Source: Hymenopellis radicata
Taxonomy: Eukaryota > Basidiomycota > Agaricomycetes > Agaricales > Physalacriaceae
Reading direction: 5' to 3'
Assembly (NCBI GenBank): GCA_015501595.1
Contig: JADNRX010000289.1
Coordinates: 1 to 64,000, forward strand
Length of the DNA: 64,000 nucleotides
Shown: positions 1 through 64,000 of the stretch, in pieces
How positions within the stretch are numbered: the stretch's first letter is position 1
Layout of the letters: each line of letters starts with the position of its first letter
Translations under genes and position numbers: made by a program
Notes under the pieces: model-generated
What the model was told of the DNA's origin: nothing
The model's database searches: none
Seen by the model: only the letters and a program-made list of their open reading frames with translations

Positions 1-657
1 GCAATGTGACACCCGGCCACACAAATACACAGAAGCGCAGGAAGTGTAGGAAAGCGCATTGCCGTACATGAAGATAGTGACAAGCATAGTATGGCGAAAG
101 CAGCAGCCGTCACTGCTGCCGACACGTGAAGCAGTAGCGTAGCGTAGCGGTCCATGGCAGCAGCAGTGATTGCACGGAGAAAGCGATGAGCGCGTAGCGC
201 GGTGACAAAACAGTATAGGCAGTCTGAGACTGCAAAAATTAGCGTGTTGCGGGTGATTGCAGACACGCAACAGAGGAGGAGTAGGCATGCTTGACGCATC
301 GCAATCGCCGCAGCCGGAAACTGGCCAAGAAAGCATTCTGTCACCGCTAACCACTCCATCGAGAAAGTCGAGAGAGTGGCCGAAAACCTTACAAACAAAG
401 CTCTGGGTGCCAGCGTGGAGTCTGCGCGCCCAACTTTCTCGACGCGACGACAATCGTGGTGGAAAGAGAAAGAAATTGATCGCATCACTTACGTGTCCGA
501 ACAGTCCGAAGACCTCAGTTTCGTGTCCCTCTTCCTTTGGCTTCCTTCTCTTCTTTTTCATCATGATATCGATGTGACACTTGTCCGCCTTAAAACCACA
601 TCACTTGAACATGACAGGATACGCACTTCTCCCCCGCCCATCACCACCACCATCACG
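1..657. other. Upstream region without a recognised gene
   Basis: No coding segment with family resemblance was found on either strand. There are short GCAGCA/TAGCG-rich stretches near 100-200 but no clear repeat unit. The end of the stretch probably holds the promoter and 5' UTR of the hydrolase that follows, because a pyrimidine-rich tract lies around 525-560. Confidence 0.4.
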
Positions 658-1699
658 ATGTCCAGCCCAGGAAGAATGCTCACCTCCGCTGATGGCACGC
701 TCATCTATGCAGATGCCATCGGGGATCCCACCAACCAGCTGTTGTCTTCATACACGGGTTTACGCTCTCTGCATCAGCCTTTGATGCAATATTCGACGAT
801 CCCAAGTGGTCCGAGTCTCTATACCTGGTGTGCTCGTCCCCCTCCCTTGACGCGTCTACTCAACAAACACGTAGGTCAGATACGACACGCGCGGCCACGG
901 GCGGAGCGGGATGCCACTGACGCTTCCGCCTGGGAGTCGCGGCGCCTCGCGGAGGACTTCGACGCCGTCGTCGACGCGTTCGGGCTCGCTAAACCCTTCG
1001 TGCTAGCCTGGTATGGCGCCTTTTTCTCGCATCCGTATAGAATCCAGCGCCCTGACCACTACGTGTCTGCTGCAGGAGCTTGGGTGGTACGCCCTTTCAG
1101 TCCCACTGTCAGTGTTTACATGGGAAAGTGACGCGCCTGCAGGTACCCACCTCGTTGATATCCTGTCCTTGCACCCGGGTTCATATTTATCGGGTGTAAT
1201 CCACCTCGCTGGGGTGCCGTACATGGCCAGCGTTCCCATCGCGGGTACTCCCCTGGCACGCAGCTGCCTTGCGCCCCTCGCCCAGACCACGGACGTGGTC
1301 GCGTACCAAGAGGCCGCAATCAAGTTCGCGAAAGGGTGCGCACCCGGCGCTTCGTGGAATGTGATCACACAGGTTCTGGGCCAGATGATGATGCTGCCTC
1401 CCGCGGTAACGCAGCGCGTTATTGCACGTACCCAGGACGAGAAGGGGTTCTTAAAAGCGGGAGCTGAGGGATTACCGTTCCTTTCGGTGGGCGGCGATGA
1501 GGACATTCTTATCGACTGGAAGGCAGCTGCGCCTCTCATGGATGGATTCACCAACAAGAAATTCGTCGAGATCAAAGGTGAAGGTGCAGATCATATTCCA
1601 TGGTTGACACGCTCCGACGAGATGCGCGGTCACATCGTCAGTTGGATCGAGGAAGTTGGGAAAAGTCCGAGCATTTGTTTCGATGACAAGGCAAGCTGA
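658..1699 (+). CDS. Alpha/beta-hydrolase-fold protein, apparently frameshifted
   Basis: This looks like a serine hydrolase of the alpha/beta fold; the substrate is unknown. Reading from ATG 658, the expected features appear in order: the oxyanion-hole strand (AVVFIHGF, from 738), the segment RYDTRGHGRSG after an intron ending near 871, a nucleophile elbow AWSLGG rebuilt over two introns, the acid region FLSVGGDEDIL, and the catalytic His in GADHIPW. The elbow is A-x-S-x-G rather than G-x-S-x-G. Two one-base frame changes have no room for an intron, near 722-736 (a GGGG run) and near 908-916. The gene is therefore either decayed or mis-sequenced. The later exons (about 1132-1699) read cleanly to TGA. 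Family assignment is firm; functional status is not. Confidence 0.6.
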
Positions 1700-1854
1700 A
1701 ATATAGACTCGACACAACCGCCGATCAGATCTGCCTCCCCCATCAACTCCTCGAAAAGCTCTGGCATCGAGCTGCTCGTTCGAGACTACTTAGTTGAAAA
1801 TACAAATTACAGACTTAGTCGTATATATCGTTCATTCTATATCCACATTTCCCT

Positions 1855-4640
1855 TCAATGACATCCGTGCGAGCCTGTGTTCACAGAGCCATTCTGTCCT
1901 TGTGAGAATGCCGCAACGCTATGCGGATCCTGGACGCCGGGCACATCCATGCTAGGATTCTTGTCAAAGAACGAGATAGGCCGGAAGATGACGCTGAGGT
2001 GTTCAACGGCATCCTAAGCAGAAAATACACATGAGCGCGCGCGCAGCTCTTGAGCATACCAGACACTTACACAGGCCAATCCTCCGGGCGTGGGATATGC
2101 GTCACACCTGCAAACGTTAAATCACCGTCAAACGTCAAGAAGCGCGCGCAACATACCAACAGTGAGGTACACCAACAAATCCTCATTCTCTACATTCTGC
2201 TCACCCTTAACCCACGCGCCAACCGAATCCTCCGGGCTCTCCCTCGTCTGCGGGACATACTTCCCAGCCGGCCACATCCTGCTCCCCTTCTCGCCCTCTA
2301 CGTCCTTGCACACCCACACAGGGTAATGCGTAAACGACGCCCTCTTCAGCGCCCATCCATCATTCCTCGCCATCATCGGCGTGATCCCGCCCTTCATCTG
2401 AATTCCATACCCCACGTCTTTCCCACTGCAGTAATGTTTCCGTGCGGGATTCGTGATGCGCCACCTGCGCTCCTTGGCAAAGTCATATGGACGACCGGCT
2501 TCCTTTGTAAGGACAGTGTCCTGTGAGATGAACGCGTTCCCGGCAAAGTTCATCGCGGAACCGGTCTCTGCGTCAGGGAGAGGGAAGAACGTCAGATTCA
2601 ACGACAGTATTGTTAATGCCATCGATCATGGGGTCGACGCGGACGCAGAACAGGTGCTGATGGTAATGCGCATTCACGTTGGGCGCCACAATGGAGCCAA
2701 ACTTGTTCGGCTCGCCATCTGCGGAGACGTAGGCCTGCAGGATGCCGGTGAGACGAACCTCCAGCTCGATGTTGCCGTCTTGGTAGAACATGTAGTTCCA
2801 GATGTATTCTAGTGAGGGTGAGTATGGGGTGCCACTATTATACGAGAATATTCGTACCGTAATTCGCCAGCGTACAAACCATACTGACGACCAATCGGCG
2901 ACGACGCACAGTTTGGGAGCGGCCTCCCGGACGGTAATCGGTGTGTTTCCAGAGGACACCGCTGTCCTCCTCGTGGATGCAGATCACATTCTTGATGACA
3001 ACGGCGTTCCCGTCATGGGCAACATAAGCGCCGGGCTACAAGAAAAATGAGCTGACCAGCATCATCCCAGCTCTCTTCCACGCACGAGATAATGGATCTG
3101 CCCCAGACAATCGCAGCCCAAAGACAGCTCGTTCGCCATCGTACCCATGCCATATTCACCACTGTACCATGATTTTAACGAACGCTCACATTCAAACAGA
3201 GGGGAAACACGTACGAATCAAAAGCAAACTTCCTCGGATGCGGGAACTCTGGGGCACCATACGGCACCACCATCTCCGCCAATGAAAGCCTATAAATGAC
3301 AGGTCGAACCTCCCCATGATCGTTATACGTGATCGTCGACAACGCGATACCTTCACGATGGCTGAACGCGATGTGCATTTTCCAATTCTGCCATTCCAAC
3401 TCGTTACCGTTCATCTTGAAACTGACACCCTCTGGTTGGACAATATGCAGGGGCTTGATGTCGTCCCGGGCCTTGAAGTTGGCATCGTTCTGGCTTAGGA
3501 GATCGGGCAAAGAAGTCAAATGCTTTCCTTGGAGGGGGAATACGCGCTCGATTAGATTTGGCTTGCGCGTCGTCGGTCAAGGCCGGCGGAAATGTATCTT
3601 GGACACTGAGAACGGCGCCATTGGTGCTGGCTTTGTAGTGCGGCGGGAAATCTAAAATTGTTTAGGACCAGTTCATTCGTAGTTGAAGCCCAAGCATACC
3701 GATGTGAATGACTTTGTCGGCGTTCGCGTCGATGACGGGAACGAAATCCTAGGAATCGTTGGCATTCGAGATCTCACTTTCAATGGGAGAGCCTACCATA
3801 GGATGCGCGTACAAATTCTCATGCTCGCTGAAACGGGCGAAAACCAGTGCTTGTTGGATACGTTGGCTCTTCGGGAACCGGTCGTCGTATCCGATAGACC
3901 ACCATCACAATAGATTTGTTCGGGAAGGATGCCTATAATAGAACATGAGTCCCAAGATCCGCAACATGCAAAGTCGCGTTGACTGACCAACGTCCTTGGC
4001 AAGCTGCTGAACTCTGGGGTCGGCCTTAACAATCGCTTCACACGCCACGAGTTCTTCGACCGAAATCTGGGGTTGCACGCCCTCGGGAAGCTTCTCAAAA
4101 GTGAGAATTTCCCACTTGTGGTTCTCGAACGCGAGGATGACGTTGTAGGAGTGTCTGGAGATACTTGAAATTTCGTTCAAAGCTTAGGAAAACGAGTAGA
4201 CCTACCCATTAACACAGTCAAGGAACTAGATTGATATCCAAATGAGCAAGAAAGAGCCAAGGACTTGAGAAGAGTTACGTACGTCCACTTCTGCCTTCCT
4301 GACGATGGTCACAGGCGACTCTGGTGTACCACCCGGTGTCAGGGGTATACCGAGGTGCGCAAGGACCGCCTTCTTGGGAGGTGGAAGTAGATAGTTTGTG
4401 ATAAACTTGATTGCTTTGACGCCAGGAAGCGTACTCGCGACATGCTGGCGCACCGCTAGAGAAACTGCAGCAATCTAAACCTATGTTAGCGACTCTTCGT
4501 GATCGACGAATAGGGCACAGACCTCCTCAGGAGTCAATGGATCGAGGGGATGATTGAACGCAGTGGGAAGAGGACTCGTAGAAGTCTTCACGGTAGTTCG
4601 CAGTACTTGGAATAACAGTCGCCATGACGGGCAATGCAGA
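1855..4640 (-). CDS. Copper (TPQ) primary-amine oxidase
   Basis: It oxidises primary amines to aldehyde, NH3 and H2O2 using copper and a topaquinone made from its own tyrosine. Spliced minus-strand exons show the diagnostic parts: an N-terminal region with HPLDPLTPEE, the catalytic base in FAFDSGEYGMG (joined over an intron near 3150-3200), the cofactor tyrosine in ANYEYIWNY (joined over a 45-50 nt intron near 2810-2856), the copper ligands in HYHQHLF, and the third histidine in GVTHIPRPEDW near 2060-2110. The stop TGA is complementary to 1855-1857. The start is uncertain: the ATG near 4634 is out of frame with the first recognisable exon, so a short 5' intron or another start is needed. There are at least eight short introns. 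No secretion signal is evident, so a cytosolic or peroxisomal site is likely. A role in amine nitrogen use is inferred from the family. Confidence 0.9.
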
Positions 4641-5136
4641 AAGTGGGCGGGTGTAGATAAAGGCAGGAGCTAAGCTGCGTTCAACCTGCATGAAGCCGGA
4701 AGCTGATCAGCGACAAGGATCACCTGATTATAGGTGAGCGAGGATCTATCGAGTCAATGCTATCGGGTGTCCGTCTCCACGTATTGAAGGAGTTATTGCC
4801 TTAGTCGCTCTAGCGTATAGGCCCATACTTGTTCCAAGAAGCGAGAAGACGCGCGGGAAGCTGATAAGAGGCCTGTTCTGAATAGTATCCGCCATGGCGA
4901 ACGAGATAAGAGCTGGGAGAAGCATATACAAGTAAAGAATCTGTTCGGAATTGTGTGAATGATTGATATTTTTTGAACGGAGTTGGTAGCCGCAGTCCGT
5001 TGTGCGTTAGCAAAAAAGAAAGTCCAGACCGCCTAGGAACCGTCGTGACAGTTTGAATCGAAATCAGGGTCGACTTTGAGCGCTGATTTGCCTCGAGGCC
5101 TGTTCCTTTACGGCGCTTATTTCTCTTTTCTTTTAG
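4641..5136. other. Divergent intergenic region, amine oxidase / CorA transporter
   Basis: No coding segment is recognised here. It lies between the 5' ends of the minus-strand amine oxidase and the plus-strand transporter, so it should hold both promoters. A pyrimidine-rich tract with repeated GTCGTC lies just before the transporter start (5118-5150). Confidence 0.4.
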
Positions 5137-55080: not shown

Positions 55081-58000
55081 AACTGATATATGTCTGCCCG
55101 GGATCGACAGATTGGGAGAGGTGGGATGTGACGGACCCGGAAGCCCATGTTATGGAGGCCGTAGCATTCGTGTCGGCTATGCACCCAGTCAGGCGGATCA
55201 TGGCGCTGGGCGACGTAAACGGACGGACCGGACAGAGAAATAGGTCGATGGTACGGACATCTCGGGACGCGACTGTCAATACAAGGGGCCTGTGGCTTCT
55301 GGATCTCTGTGGTGCTTTCTGTCTGGAGATATTGAATGGGACGCCGGTAGAGAGTGACAGGCGCCCCGGTGAATTTACGTCCTTTCAAGCAGCGGGGCAG
55401 GCGGTCGTCGACTATGTCCTGTTTTCATCAGCGGCGTGTCCGCAGCTGTCTACCGCGTCTTTGACTGTAACACGCGTCCCAGATTGGTCTGATCATGCGG
55501 TGCTTGCCCTAGATGTCCAGTTGCCGGATGCCGCGGAGGTAGTCAGAGTTGGAAGGCAGGGGGTTCAACATGCAGTGGACGACGTGGAGGCGGTCATGAA
55601 GGCGAGCCGTCCCACTTGGTTTAGACAGGATGATGAGATGGAGGGGGTCGTTAGGACGGCTTTAGAGTCTGCTGTCTGTGCAGAAGGAACGACACTGGCG
55701 CTGTACGGGTCGACATACACTGATGGTAGGCCCCTGGAGGTTTACGTTGAGTGCTATTCTAAAAGGCGGAGGCCGGGCGATTCTGGGTTGGACACCGTAG
55801 CCGTGCTGTCTTACGGCAAAAGGGGTGATTCGAGGTGGAGTGCGGGGCGGCTACCTGATGGTACACCTACTGGGGATCTGAATGGGTTGCTCTATGCAGT
55901 GGTCCTAGCCTTGCGCGACGTCTCTATATATCGACGGCTCATTCTGTATACAGCAAGCAAGTCGTTCCTCCATCTCGTGGCGTTTGGTCTGGGGGAAGTG
56001 GCCGCGTGTGGATTTGTGGATTCAGTGGGAGACTGGTTTGCAGATGCCATGAGAAGGCGGGCGGCACCATTGGATATTCGCCTCGGTACGAGAGATGCAC
56101 ATGCTAGTCACTTAGGTGTGTTGAAGCGGAGAGCTCGGGATCTGTGGCGACGAAGTGCCTTACAGCTGCCGCAAGTAAGCGCCGGGCTCAGCGCGCCAGG
56201 TTTCCATAGTTCTCAGCCCGTTCTGCCTGTTCCCAAGCTTATAGTCAGCTTGAGAGACAGGAAGAAGGTTTTGTCCTCCCGTGGAACTGATGGGGTTCCC
56301 ATTGTGAGAGTGGCACCGGCGGATGGTTTGGCAAGTGTGCGGACACGAGCAGCTGTTCGTAGGGCGCAGGGGAAAGTGTTAGAGCGTATGTTGAAGGGGG
56401 GACGCGAGTTTTGGAGTGTGGTCAGGGAATGCACGGCGAAGAAGGATCGGCCAACACTGGTGAATGCGGAACAGTTGGTTTATGCGTTTGAGGCACGACT
56501 CAACCCGCCTGAGGTGCCTCCCGCTCATTTCGACGAGGAAAGGCGTTTATACTACGCGGCTATGGCTGAGGCTATTCCCTCGGTAACTGAGGATGATAGC
56601 CCAGAGCAGTTTTTCACGGCGGCGTTTGCACCGGGGGAGCTGGCGGCAATACGGAGTGCTCTCAGAAAGAAGGCTGCGGATTCGGCGCGTGGCGCGGACA
56701 GAGTGTCGTACGCCAAGATCCTGACCCTCTCAAATGAGGTGCTCGCTCAGCTGTTCAACACGTGCATAGAACGAGGTGCAGCACCAGAAGGCTGGATGAC
56801 GACAATTCTGGTGGCTCTCTTGAAGCCGGGGAAGCCGTCAGAGGAGGCAGACAGCTATAGGCTTGTGGGTTTGGAGAGTTGCCTGCTGAAGGTTAGCTGA
56901 CTGTTGTTCTTCGGTATGAAAGACTAATGAGGTGTCAGGTGTTGACGCTTCTTATTGAGAAGCGGATTCGGAAGTGGGCTGATGTGCGCAATGTCTTTCC
57001 CGACTCTCAGAATGGGTTTCGGGCTGGGCTGCGCACTCACAATAACTCGTTTGTTTTGCGTGCGGCAATTGACAGGGCGCGTGCGGAAGGGAAAACACTC
57101 TTTGTGGCTTTTGTGGATCTAAAAAATGCATTCCCTGCAACGGACATCCCTACGTTATGGATGAAGTTGTATAATGCGGGCGTGTCGGGACCGCTTTTCG
57201 ACTGGCTGCGGATGGTATACGCGCGTATGAAGTATGTCGTGCGTCACGAGGGCGTGATCACGGAGGCGTTCAAGTCTCTGATTGGGGTGCTCACTGGAGA
57301 TACTGCGTCGCCCGTCCTGTGGAATGTGTTTTTTTGCAGATTTGGAGGCTGCAATCGCTGAGGATGTTGATGACTTATATCTGGCTGGCCGAGCGATTTC
57401 TCATGTGGAACAGGCAGACGATGTGGCTCTTTGGTCTACGACGTTGGATGGCCTACAGAGAAAACTGTCTGCATTCTTCGAGTGGTGTCGTACCAACTTC
57501 ATGACGATCAGCGTGTCAAAGACGGAGTGGATGATGTTCGGCGGGATACCGACAGGGCGGCGATTGTTCCCGTTAGTGGTGAACGGGAGTCAGGTGGCGC
57601 TGGTCGCGCAGTACAAGTATGTCGGGATCGTGTTCACGTCAACGAAGCGGGATATCTTCTACGAGCATTACGTGGCGAAGGCAGTGAAGGCCATGCGTGT
57701 GGCTAGTGTCATTTTTTCTTTGGAGAACCATGTGGGGGTCTTGACGGTGGCTGTGGGTTGCCGTTTGTATCAGGCATGTGTGGATCCGCACCTGACATTT
57801 GGTTCGGAGGTCGCGCTCGATGTGCATAAGGCGGGAATAGCAAGACTGGAGAGAGTGCAGGTTTACTTTCTGCGGCGGTTGCTTGGTTTGACAAAGAGGA
57901 GCAAGACTATCCCTCTGTTCACAGAAACTGGGGTTATGCCATTGCGTTACAGGAGGATCGTTCTAGTGCTACGGTACGCGCAATACGTTTGGAATCTGCC

Positions 58001-58868
58001 CGAGCGTGTCTTTGCTGCGAGTGGGATGAAAGATTCTTTGGATCTCCATCGGCAGAGGGTCCAGGGTTGGGTGATGGATTTGGAGTATGTGCTATACCGC
58101 TTGCCGTGCTCAGTGGTAGCGCCAACTTGGGATGCGGGTGCCCTTAAAACGAAGGAGTGGTTGGCGGAAGTTGTTGACCGTGTGTATCGGTCGTGTGATG
58201 CTTGGCTGGAAGGCTCTGTTTTGGCGTCGCCAAGGCTCTGGATGCTGCATCAAAGGTTCCGCGAGATTCGTGCTAAGGTCGACAGGAAACGAGAAGCTGG
58301 ACGGCTGTACTTCGCAAAAAGGCAGCCGTGGACCGGGGTGCAGAACCCTGAGCACCGCCGTGCTTTGAGTCGCCTTGTGTCTTCAAACCACCGTTTAGCG
58401 GTAGAGGTGTTGAGAAGGGGAGACGGCCAGCGGAGGCGCCCAGTTCCGCGGGAGTGGAGGCTGTGTCGGTTCTGCCGCGAAGAGGTGGAGGATGAGGTTC
58501 ATGCGTTGCTGGTGTGTACAAGCTCTCGTGAGCTGGTGTCGCTGCGCGCGGGTTTTTGGACAGAGCTCGATGGTAGAGACGCGGGTTGGCGAGGCCTGAG
58601 GGACACAAGGGAGGGCTTCTTTGTGCTCCACATGCTGCTGTCCTCTGAGCGCGTATGTGCTCGTTTTGGGCGGTTCGTCTCTGAAGTGTTCGCACTGTTT
58701 GATGGGTCGGTCATGTTTCTTGTGGCAAGGTCGTTATACGAGCATGTGGGCGGCACCGTTGCTGACGCGGACGTAGAAGATGACGATGTGGAGGCGGAGG
58801 ATGAGGACTCGGTGGAACTGTTGGATGCAGACGATTACATGGCCCTTGCGCTGCGTGGTTTTGGCTAG
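55081..58868 (+). mobile_element. 5'-truncated non-LTR retrotransposon (LINE)
   Basis: The open frame begins inside the endonuclease domain (IMALGDVNGRTG, FTSFQAAGQAVVDYVL, PDWSDHAVLAL), so about the first 100 residues of that domain are missing. It continues through an RNase H-like segment, a reverse transcriptase and a C-terminal zinc knuckle (CRFCREEVEDEVHALLVC). RT marks are ADSARGADRVSYAKIL, NGFRAGLRTHNNSFVLR, FVAFVDLKNAFPATD and EQADDVALWS. The RNase H segment (STYTDGRPLEV, LYAVVLAL, LILYTASKSFL) lies before the RT and lacks the usual Asp in YTDSK. The frame breaks in a 7-T run (57,329-57,335) between WNVFF and ADLEAAIAED. A 47-nt GT-AG insertion at 56,892-56,938 looks like an intron. 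No poly-A tail was noticed. Confidence 0.85.
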
Positions 58869-59451: not shown

Positions 59452-60833
59452 CTAGCAATCCCTAGGCTCCCAATCTGAATCTGAGTCTTCGCTTTCACTG
59501 CTACTGAAACCGTCATGATTGTCGTCGTCGTCATCGACATCATCGGGTAGGAGGGCAGCCTGAATCTGAGCTGCATTCAACCGTATAACTAGGCGCTGAG
59601 GCGGAGCAAGAGGATCAGCGGCCACTTGTATTCGCCGCCGCTTTCTTGGCTGTGGTCCGTCTTTCTGTTTTCGCTTGCGCTTCCCAGTCCCCGGACTCTT
59701 CTTCTTTGCCTTTCCACCACGGTCTCGCAATTCCTTTGCCAGTCGGTCGTGCAATTCCTTTCGATCTGTTGAGATTGGAATAGGCTTGACTAGATCCCGT
59801 GGAAGCGCAGCGCGGACGAGATGAGCATTGTGAAAGGCATGGAGATTCACGAAGAACCGTTCATCAGAACAATGGATAATAAATTTTTCGACCACGGCGC
59901 TGTCTTGTCGTTCTTGCTTTTTGTTCCGCTCGCCGGTCGCCGCACATCCGGCAGAGGCACAGTCGTGCTGGACATTGAATTTAAACTTGATGCTCTAGCC
60001 AGAGGTCAAGTTGTGGAGAGCGCAACAGTTAAATCGACTCACCTCTGCAGCTACAATGTGGTGAACTTTTTCTCCATCCGGTCGAACCAGGACAGGCATG
60101 CCGTAGGTCTCGTCTCGCGATTCAGAGACACGGAAAACTTCAATAACAATAGCGGCTGCCGGCGTTGGAGGTTTGGCGCTTGGCGGTGCCAAAATTGAAG
60201 CAATACGTCCAACACTGAGTTTCTTTTCCTGATCAAGTATTGAGTTGCGTTAGGTGAAGGGATCGAAAAGCACTTACGGTGGTGGAAAACGGCGATATAT
60301 AGAAAACCCACGAAGTCTCGTAACATTCTTCGGAAGATTCTGAGATGATATGAGCGCATTCATACCACTCCGAGCTAGCAGTGTATGATGCGTAATTCAG
60401 AGCTAATGCCGCCACGGTTCCTGAAAGCTTGATCGTGGTCCTCGTTCGGTTCTTGGGAGCGGCTTTCAAATGGTAAGATCCTGCAAGTATGATGAGAAGA
60501 GGTGTTTGCATTTCGAAAGTCTGAAACTCCATACCTGCCTGTTTAGAGTGGACATCTGACCAACCAAGAAGTCCACGAAGATGCGGATGCATTTGCACGA
60601 AATCCTGGATTCCAGTACCGGCCCGTTGCCAATCACTTTCGCCAACCGGCCACCATCCGCTCATCAGACGATGCTTGAGTGCCTCTTGAGCCCCGAGCTG
60701 AAGCGCAATGTCGCGGCTTGGAGCCAAATGATTCGAGAAGATCGAACAACTCCGGAAGACACCATTGAAAGCTTCAAATATCTCAGTAGCCACGCCAACG
60801 AGTGGTCCGAATCCAAACAACATCATCAACAGT
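59452..60833 (-). pseudogene. 3' half of a repeat-family gene, separated by an insertion
   Basis: Minus-strand exons read FGFGPLVGVATEIFEAFN, SNHLAPSRDIALQLGAQE, QRAGTGIQDFVQMHP, LRGLLGWSDVHSKQAG, a segment near 60,000-60,190 with IVIEVFRVSESRDETYG, FIIHCSDERFFVNLHAFHN, a basic patch (GKRKRKQKDG), and an acidic tail ending DSDWEPRDC with the stop at 59,452-59,454. They continue the protein encoded by 61,954 to the window end; the hAT-like insertion separates the two. Even without the insertion, the frame at the junction is off by one base, a sign of further decay. The family is very abundant in Agaricomycetes and behaves like a mobile-element gene, but its activity is not established to my knowledge. 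Confidence 0.7.
60826..60833. repeat. Target-site duplication, left copy
   Basis: TCAACAGT, identical to 61,954-61,961, flanks the 1,120-bp hAT-like element. Confidence 0.85.
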
Positions 60834-61953
60834 TAAGGAATAGCCCGGGTAATACCGCGGGTAACGGCCTTACTCCGTCTACCCGACCCGCCAATACCGC
60901 ATACCGCACTGGCGGTATACGGGTGCCGGTCGGTATACGGTATACCGTCGAATACCGTCAGCCATACTCGTGGGGAAGGGAGAGACTAGAGATGGAGATG
61001 GATTTCGTGCGCACCGACGACCCCCAGGCAATTGCACAGGGGTAATCGATGAGCACGAGGCAGAGAATGTGGGGGCGGAAGACAGAGTGTCAATGTTGGT
61101 ACCAGAAGTCGGGAAAGGCGATTCAGAGCACGTAGATGGCGGTCAAGAGCAAGGAGACGGTGCGTAGATGATGGCGCTACAACGTCAAACATCGTTAGAA
61201 GAGAAAGAATGTATAAAAAATCAGGAAATACGCACCATTGCGGATTAGATGCGTCCGCGACGCCCTCTATCCCAGAGTCCAATGCCTCGGCACATTGTTG
61301 AGTGCCTTCACGCGGCCATTGTCATCATTGTCGTTGTCGTCGTTGTCGGCATCTGAGTGCGAGTTTGCGCCATCAATGCGCCGTTGTGGGTGAATGGCGG
61401 AGCACTACGCCAGTCTGAGTACTCCAGCCATCGTGCAGCCTCATCTAGAGGGCTTACGCGAGTCGTATCCATCTTGCAATGGCGCCGTCGCGCAGACCAG
61501 CACCAGCATGCGCCCCGGAATGTATCCGAGGGCGCAGCAGCCGGCGCGAAGCCAAACGCACCAGGAAAACCAGTCAGACAGCTTGAAAGGAAGTCGGAGA
61601 AGCCCCAGAAATTTTTCTGGGGCCGACGAGCGCGACACGGACGTCGTGCTGTGGTGACATGAGAGGAAGAGGCAAGATCGCAGCTGATCGATGCGTATCC
61701 GGCAACTGCCGGATGATCGGGCAGCTCGGCGATGAGGAAAATTCCTCCGCAACGTCGTTTTTAGATGACGTTGGCGTTATTTGAGGTCAGAAAATTTCAA
61801 TAAATTCTTCAAAAATGTATATTCATAATAAGCATGTCTTGAGCACGGTATGCGGCGGTATACCGCGGTATCGCCGATCAGCTACCGTACCCGTCCCGCG
61901 GGCTACCCGACCCGTCATACCGTCGGTTACCCGCCATACCGTGCTACTCCTTA
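60834..61953. mobile_element. Non-autonomous hAT-like element (1,120 bp)
   Basis: It begins TAAGGAATAGCCCGGG and ends with the inverted partner GTGCTACTCCTTA (terminal TAAGGARTAGC). It is flanked by the exact 8-bp duplication TCAACAGT. Both ends are packed with GGTATACC, TACCCG and CGGTAT words, a typical subterminal array. The 8-bp duplication and a terminus fitting the hAT pattern (pyrimidine-A-purine-N-G) support the hAT superfamily. No transposase frame is present, so it would need a partner in trans. It sits inside an exon of a repeat-family gene on the minus strand. Confidence 0.85.
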
Positions 61954-61961
61954 TCAACAGT
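61954..61961. repeat. Target-site duplication, right copy
   Basis: TCAACAGT, the second copy of the duplication that flanks the hAT-like element. Confidence 0.85.
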
Positions 61962-64000
61962 GTGTGTCAGAAGGTGAAGTTTGATCTTCGTAACAACTTT
62001 CGAGGGATCGAGAATAGCAAACGCGTCGAGTACGTTGCCAACAGCAACTTTGAGATCTTCCTACGGCGGAGTTAGAGCACGTATAGAGCAAGAAAGCGAT
62101 AACCTACAATATATTCCTTCAGATTTCGTATTTCTGGGAACCAGAGTAAAGCGCCCAGCTCTCCGACAGCCTTCCAAACCACGAATTGATCGTCTGAGAC
62201 TAGATCGCGGATGTGGAAGATATTTGCTTGTACCAGCATCTTGAAATGGACACTGAGTGCATCCGTGTTGGTTGCTTGCAGCCGCCGGGAATACACCAAC
62301 TTCTGTTCGGGTGAGAAGGAGGTGTGTGTCGAGTGCCAGATATACTTGACAACTCCCAGGAGAATCGTGTGAAGGATCTCGATTGGGGTATCTCTCGTCG
62401 GGTCAAAACCTAACTTCAGTGAGAAAGGCGATAACTCCTGCTGATTATCAGGTGCTCACCTTCTGTCGTCAAGAATCCGCTATAGATTGTATCTCTGTTT
62501 TCGACCGTCCACTCGATTAGTTCCTTCTGAATTTCATCCGGCGTCTTTGTGTTCTTCGGGTCCGACTTCATGGCTTGATACCGCGAAATGAGATCTCGAA
62601 TCCAGTACTCTGTATACGCGTCCTTGATCCCAGTGCTTGATTGACGGTCCTTGATTGGCTGTGCAACCCCGGCACAGGCAAGTCGAACTTGTTCTTCAAG
62701 TTCCTTGACAATTGACTCTTTTGAGCGAAGGGTTCCTGCCTGCAAGCATCGCGTTAGAAACGGCGCCGCTTCGAGTTAGTGTTGATGCCTACCTCGAACA
62801 ATGCATGATATCCTTCATTCTCTCGCTTCTCTGCTTGTGTCCCGCCGACTTCGCATTTTCGACAAGGATAGTTGCCCTTGGATCCGATGTTCGCAGCAAT
62901 CTCGCTCTGCATAGGATTGTCCGAGGAATCAACTATCTTTTGAAGCATGAATCGTATCTGTGTGCCGGATTCACCATCTCGAACTTTGACAGGGTCTTTG
63001 TGTGTCGCCCTTGAAATGCACATTAGTAAGTAGAGAAATCAACGGAGAGAAATAACGCACTCGACAATCTTCTTGAACGCGGCATACTGCTCCATCACGG
63101 ATGCATGCGGAGAGGAGGAAACGAAGTGAACATGAAACTCTTGTCGAATAAGAGCACGCGGGAGGTTACGGTGGGTCATATAAACGTTCCAGTGCTTATT
63201 CCATTGCTTTGAGCGGTTACCAGAGACATCGTCACTGAAGTACTCAATGAACGAAACATAGAGCGGGTCACCTCCCGCAATTGCTCGTTTCGGATTTGGC
63301 ATCTTTGAGGCATGGCTATCGTTGTCTAGAAGGGTACTAGTTGAGTAGAGGAGAAGATGAGAGACAGTACACCCACCTGGCCAATGCGGAAGCTTGCCTT
63401 CAAACTCAAGATCAAGATAATTTTTCATCAGTTTTCGCGCGTCGATGAAGATTGTCCTGTCCAAGACGCTGGAAAGACCCTGAATCCGAGTTGCATTATT
63501 AGCACAAGGCGATAGAGAGGGCGAGTATCAACGTACCTCATGATCCACGATGACTTCAAGAGCATCAGCGTAAACGCGACGACGAAAAGTTACCCATCGC
63601 TGAGGGATTACCAATCGCTTGTCGTCAAGCATCGCGAGCTCATCGACATAATAATGCTTTCCTGATGCGTCGAACATGGGACTTAGAAGACTCGTGTCCA
63701 TGCCTCGACGCCACTTCTCTGCATGCCAGATTTCCCGAATAACTCCGTCTTCAGGAATCTCGGGGTAAACCCGGATTTGCTTTCGTATCTCAGCAGTGGC
63801 CCAGTCCTAACACAAACTGATTAAACAGTGACAGATGTTTGAATATTGTAGAACTTACTTTGGCGATGAGGGTACGCGGGTCGTTCAAGTAGAAGACATT
63901 CCCAAGTGTTGACGTGAACGAAAGAGTCGGTACGCCACATTCCGCGCGTAGCTTGGTCTGTACTTTCCGAAGGCGGTCAAACGAAGGAACATCTCGCGCG
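61954..64000 (-). pseudogene. 5' half of the same repeat-family gene, running off the window
   Basis: Exons on the minus strand from the window end inward read [87 protein letters not shown], a Cys-pair segment GNYPCRKCEVGGT, EGYHALFEVG, IKDAYTEYWIRDLISRY, DTPIEILHTILLGVVKYIW, LGALLWFPEIRNLKEYI and VTKIKLHLLTH, where the hAT-like insertion cuts in. It is a common multi-copy Agaricomycete family with short introns, likely element-derived. The start codon lies beyond 64,000. Because of the insertion and a frame change at the junction, this copy should not give the full protein. Confidence 0.72.

Follow-up and report, generated by a model that had tools for sequence, protein, structure and literature searches.

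The hAT transposons of the maize Ac/Ds family have 8-bp target duplications, 11-bp terminal inverted repeats, subterminal repeats, and many copies in which little of the coding element is left (PMC3260210). All of these features recur, with a different end sequence, in an element at 60834..61953 of a 64,000-nucleotide stretch of the Hymenopellis radicata genome (assembly GCA_015501595.1, contig JADNRX010000289.1, positions 1 to 64,000, forward strand; "the window" below is this whole stretch) and in its relatives across the genome. In seven of these relatives, the target duplication is interrupted at one end of the element by a few palindromic nucleotides of fixed design. We consider it very probable that the window element is a Ds-like, non-autonomous hAT element moved in trans by a transposase encoded in the genome, and that the seven relatives were scarred by abortive excision in which a single end was cut.

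Excision of a hAT element starts with a cut in the non-transferred strand, whose exposed 3'-OH then attacks the opposite strand and produces a hairpin on the flank (PMC6900584), a hairpin that hAT enzymes such as Hermes and Kat1 form (PMC6900584, PMC4763223). Ds footprints are consistent with cleavage at the nucleotide that flanks the element (PMC1978519), and in Candida albicans, yeast, and plants they contain palindromic (P) insertions centered on the complement of the base adjacent to Ds (PMC5873905), as the scars described here do. Those footprints are empty sites left after the element had gone, whereas in our copies the element is resident and one side of it is scarred. The nearest precedents are these empty-site footprints and an atypical Ds in the Arabidopsis line ET500, where a 598-bp inverted repeat adjoins one end of the resident element, as our scars do, and where the authors proposed that host DNA bordering one end of Ds formed a hairpin and was then joined (PMC1978519). 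In contrast to ET500, our scars are short, number seven, share one design, and lie at the normal cleavage position. In the accessible parts of the open-access literature, which omits most subscription journals, we found no description of scarred flanks beside resident hAT copies.

The element and the gene it interrupts

An 8-bp direct repeat, TCAACAGT, is found at 60826..60833 and again at 61954..61961, and brackets exactly 1,120 bp on the + strand. The ends of this unit are TAAGGAATAGC on the left (60834..60844, +), which is the end nearest the transposase C-terminus in coding copies, and the reverse complement TAAGGAGTAGC on the right (61943..61953, -), together an 11-bp inverted repeat, TAAGGARTAGC, with one mismatch. 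The right copy of the duplication abuts the element end with no filler, and the window element has no scar. When we scanned the window for 8-bp direct repeats enclosing an 11-bp inverted repeat (at most one mismatch, spacing 300-5000), 60826..61961 was the single locus returned, and 10 dinucleotide shuffles of the window returned none, so the structure is as given in the original prediction, an earlier model-made reading of the window, and is the only one of its kind there.

That reading had also remarked on dense subterminal words. The words GGTATAC, TACCG, and TACCCG indeed crowd into the outer 130 bp on the left (60834..60963, +) and the outer 110 bp on the right (61844..61953, -), with none in the middle. 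There are six GGTATAC in these two regions where shuffles lead one to expect 0.84 (0/500 shuffles reach six), and six TACCCG where 1.6 are expected (1/500 shuffles reach six). Five frames of 65-103 aa inside the element, taken from a list of frames of at least 60 aa, had no Pfam match at E 0.1 and no transposase was seen among them, in agreement with the claim that none lies within. The duplication, the short terminal inverted repeats, the subterminal repeats, and coding relatives with the domain PF05699 all support the assignment that had been proposed: judged by its sequence, the window element is a non-autonomous hAT element, a new member of a well-known kind, which a partner transposase would have moved.

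Both flanks match one agaric protein family on the minus strand. The upstream part of the interrupted gene is at 61959..63806 (from tblastn of P0003 and others, with more upstream exons beyond 63806), and the downstream part, as far as searched, is at 59800..60820, with a 1-nt frameshift near 60808..60825. Joined at one copy of the duplication, the flanks read KIKLHLLTHTVDDVV, and after the 1-nt frameshift FGPLVGVATEIFEAFNG, so the host protein does break at the insertion and resume beyond it, as had been claimed. The motif KxHxLxHxxxDxxxFGP is contiguous across the site in 97 of the 120 listed homologues, as judged by a motif search, and a paralogue at C501:48563-50654 is collinear and uninterrupted, with no insert.

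Fungal genes have many introns, a general fact in favor of reading the insert as an ordinary intron or an old gene segment. Because the paralogue and most of the listed homologues are continuous across the site, the insert is not an ancestral intron, and nine further complete copies of the same subfamily stand elsewhere in the genome, each with its own 8-bp duplication (five perfect, four displaced). The search for other copies suggested with the original prediction thus came out in its favor, and we regard the intron reading as refuted, with next to no probability left to it, and the insert as a transposition event.

The gene itself may be less ordinary than the phrase "caught inside a gene" had implied. 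The family has at least 418 homologues; the 120 listed belong to Mycena, many of whose genomes have several, and to a small number of other agarics. We found no Pfam match for it in the frames and homologues tested. Because this is a large unnamed agaric family with many members per Mycena genome, the host gene may itself be a mobile-element gene, and the family may be an undescribed mobile-element protein, though a DNA search of the genome showed only one other copy, the C501 paralogue. The frameshift is no more than about 20 bp away from the insertion, at a place where the C501 paralogue is in frame, and given this frameshift the gene may already have been decaying. A gene is interrupted, then, but one that may belong to a mobile element and that carries a frameshift nearby. 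Beside it, at 57282..58868 (+), is a 528-aa open frame with a weak, below-cut-off match to reverse transcriptase (PF00078, E 1.4e-4).

Subfamilies and coding relatives

We searched one assembly of 75.5 Mb in 1,405 contigs. The exact terminal 11-mer is unspecific in it (71 matches versus 91 for a reversed control), while 30-base end patterns are specific (0 control matches) and define three subfamilies: A, which includes the window element (13 left and 12 right ends, 10 complete copies); B (33 left and 21 right ends, 19 complete copies); and C, with TAGTGA ends (76 left and 107 right ends, 59 pairs examined). An interior block of the window element (61435..61822, element positions 610-997) matches about thirty other places in the genome at 74-79%. 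Some of these matches sit inside TAGTGA-ended elements, which indicates that A and C have some interior sequence in common despite their different ends.

The original prediction had called for an autonomous partner somewhere in the genome. The sister subfamily B includes two 4.0-kb copies (C547:59671-63716 and C540:8789-12805) with both ends and perfect duplications, whose hAT coding frames match each other along the element and have the PF05699 domain. In subfamily A, the coding copies C508:38406 and C1026:24129 share with the window element its initial 125 and 113 bp at 93% and 90% identity, respectively, and encode frames of a related transposase, with PF05699 in C508. The expectation is therefore borne out for hAT-coding copies with an A-type left end and for 4-kb B copies with both ends, but not for a complete A copy, as neither C508 nor C1026 has a recognizable right end; C1026 runs to the end of its contig.

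PF05699, the C-terminal hAT dimerisation domain, was detected in the open frames of C547 and C508 and in P0001. This Pleurotus djamor protein is the top homologue of the B transposase model, aligning to 83% of that query at 39% identity, and also matches Hermes structures (4d1q, E 2.7e-16). In the motifs DxWTS, TxDNAS, RCFxH, TRWNST, and VERxFS, the matching residues are identical in P0001 and the C547 model, and these motifs may correspond to those of the Hermes active site (catalytic D, D, and E; CxxH; the conserved W). Transposase relatedness to Hermes, seen through P0001, goes with a different target: Hermes prefers nTnnnnAn (PMC6900584), whereas 78 intact duplications in this genome give nnYRYRnn, strongest for R at position 4 and Y at position 5 (80% each, both strands).

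Duplications displaced at one end

We compared the two flanks of 88 copies, which is every copy with both ends found and fetched (A 10, B 19, C 59). Perfect 8-bp duplications border 78 of them, all 78 different, and one copy (C625:9544) has a single mismatch. In seven copies the duplication is displaced by 4-8 bases, at one end only: at the left end in four A copies (C473:83112, C1218:144690, C1318:83110, and C63:3263) and one B copy (C507:318336), and at the right end in one B copy (C1039:1089) and one C copy (C807:111053). In maize B73, 903 elements were reported with a duplication (up to 2 bp of variation allowed), and only 11 more once this demand was dropped, their flanks agreeing at 1-5 of 8 positions (PMC3260210); our 7/88 can be set beside these numbers as a count.

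The set was delimited as follows. Outside it are five A copies with one recognizable end (C508, C1026, C1173, C844, and C424), 14/33 left and 2/21 right B ends that remained unpaired, and at least five C pairs with more divergent or distant ends (C247, C667, C848, C950, and C1292). The C pairs come from among the matches listed of the C ends, and all except two met earlier were chosen by position before their flanks were viewed. The flanks of C473:70775 and C507:48014 were read in contig orientation; both are perfect, the classes are unaffected, and the target-base table is a both-strand one. Two B copies (C490:84010 and C473:77037) have a one-flank palindrome by eye, but their right ends were not found and we did not count them. 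The scan is blind to outcomes in which flank bases were lost.

The scars follow one formula. In the direction of the element, and with the unscarred side supplying the duplication, the first four read TTAATTG-CCA-G, AGGACAC-CGT-G, TGTATGT-GACA-C, and GAGGTGA-GTC-C, and the other three GCAAACA-TTGT-CAC-A (C507), GCAGTCA-GTG-C, and AGGGATG-CCA-G. In each, bases 1-7 of the duplication are followed by 3-4 bases of its own reverse complement and then, after 3 further bases in C507, by base 8. Six of the seven fit exactly, with 3, 3, 4, 3, 3, and 3 P nucleotides, and the formula has no free position. Base 8 adjoins the element in 7/7, and its complement is the first base of the inverted copy. Leaving base 8 aside, the filler totals 26 nt over the seven scars, of which 23 are consecutive reverse complement of the duplication. 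We applied the formula at P lengths of 1-8 to all 88 copies, and no unscarred copy fits it.

The match between filler and duplication is specific to each copy. Of the 5,040 ways of reassigning fillers to duplications, two reach the observed score, which we take to be the true arrangement and one in which two copies with identical fillers, and with duplications ending alike in TGG, trade places. Mismatched duplication-filler pairs resemble scars in 2/42 cases, and pairings of the fillers with the 78 intact duplications, on both strands, in 17/1,092. A displaced 7-mer appears in 4/7,656 cross-copy flank pairs, or about 0.05 expected in 88. One flank alone proves little, because the one-flank palindrome pattern also occurs twice in the 156 intact flanks, each tested for 3 and 4 bases.

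Scars are more frequent in subfamily A (4/10) than in the others (3/78; Fisher p 0.0026 in a post hoc test on one genome). Five of the seven are at the end called left, and by gene orientation six of the seven are at the transposase 3' end (judged from the coding copies C508 and C547, and from C1292 if that is a C-family coding copy). A left-end rule was dropped as unconvincing for seven events. Two other origins of the scars were considered and rejected: filler carried from the donor as extra flank of an old site, as the filler matches the recipient's own duplication, and a single scar inherited through copy duplication, as the seven duplications differ.

Proposed cutting at one end and its meaning

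Modeled on known hAT chemistry, the history would run as follows. The window element entered the host gene with an 8-bp duplication of the target and bears no scar. In the seven relatives, the transposase would nick one nucleotide outside one end of the element, and the 3'-OH of the flank would attack the opposite strand and close the flank as a hairpin, while the second end of the element stayed uncut. Such a hairpin would read bases 1-7 directly and then the complement of base 8, with base 8 itself remaining on the element. If the host opened it off-center, at a distance of 3-4 nt from its tip, and the flank was then rejoined by end joining to the end of the element that still bore the outermost flank base, the product would be bases 1-7 of the duplication, 3-4 P nucleotides, base 8, and the element. 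The 1-nt offset of the scars agrees with the Ds cut position and with the center of P insertions, which we count in favor of hairpin chemistry.

The fixed offset also bears on whether a hairpin is needed. Repair polymerases could add a templated or slippage insertion at an ordinary break near the edge of the element, and polymerase theta can extend DNA by stem-loop synthesis (PMC11292364). In 7/7 scars, however, the inverted copy begins with the complement of a base 8 that is missing from the strand end and stays on the element, which is natural for a hairpin and would be accidental for a snap-back, and we think polymerase synthesis of this kind very improbable.

The side opposite the scar is intact in all seven, which is most simply read as a cut at a single end. 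In the main rival to that reading, both ends were cut and the same element was rejoined in its own site, one junction being precise and the other containing P nucleotides. This would draw on the same chemistry, an element just excised could plausibly be joined to the open donor site beside it, and circular hAT episomes with a short intercalary sequence indicate that excised ends can be end-joined (PMC2803484). It would also require that in 7/7 cases the hairpin of the second flank open at its very tip and the joint lose no base, but in one published set every Ds footprint had breakpoint deletions or P insertions (PMC5873905), and copies scarred on both sides are 0/88 here. We judge recapture unlikely, though less so than polymerase synthesis.

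Several observations weigh against cutting at one end. Two of the 88 copies have neither a convincing duplication nor a scar (C699:4453, with 6 of 8 bases, and C974:135734). In the C507 filler (TTGTCAC before base 8; C507:318306-318336), a single round leaves 3 nt, CAC, unexplained, and two rounds of 3 + 3 P nucleotides leave 1 nt; it is suggestive, at most, that two successive one-ended cuts and one extra base fit this scar better than one round and three. The flanks of C807 contain a second, unrelated common 7-mer, TATATCC, which makes its duplication the least certain and this the weakest case. The scan of the 88 copies could detect scars of 1 or 2 P nucleotides but found none, and in Candida albicans 3-nt P insertions are rare (3/128 footprints) and none is longer, while P insertions of at least 3 nt occur in 47% of yeast and 20-30% of Arabidopsis footprints (PMC5873905). 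No intact A master copy was found, both A coding copies examined being without a recognizable right end. Finally, the scars are read from the sequence of a single assembly.

On balance we favor cutting at one end as the source of the scars, and we lean towards, without insisting on, a broader view of this fungus. The hAT ends may be cut non-concertedly, with one end often cut and hairpinned alone and then healed, perhaps repeatedly in one copy, leaving a fixed P signature. The family would then be a natural record of one-ended cleavage and of the sites at which the host opens hairpins, and scarred flanks may alter the later mobility of a copy. The studies of Ds excision cited here use empty sites left after both ends were cut (PMC1978519, PMC5873905), where it stays hidden whether the ends were cut together, and a scar beside a resident element isolates the reaction of one end. 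If this is right, the signature could be looked for in any genome that has hAT copies, and without any experiment the scars would provide estimates of how often single ends are cut in vivo, of any bias between left and right, and of the distance at which hairpins are opened. Resident copies would then be able to cause breaks while staying in place, and the copies that annotation discards for unclean duplications would contain mechanistic information.
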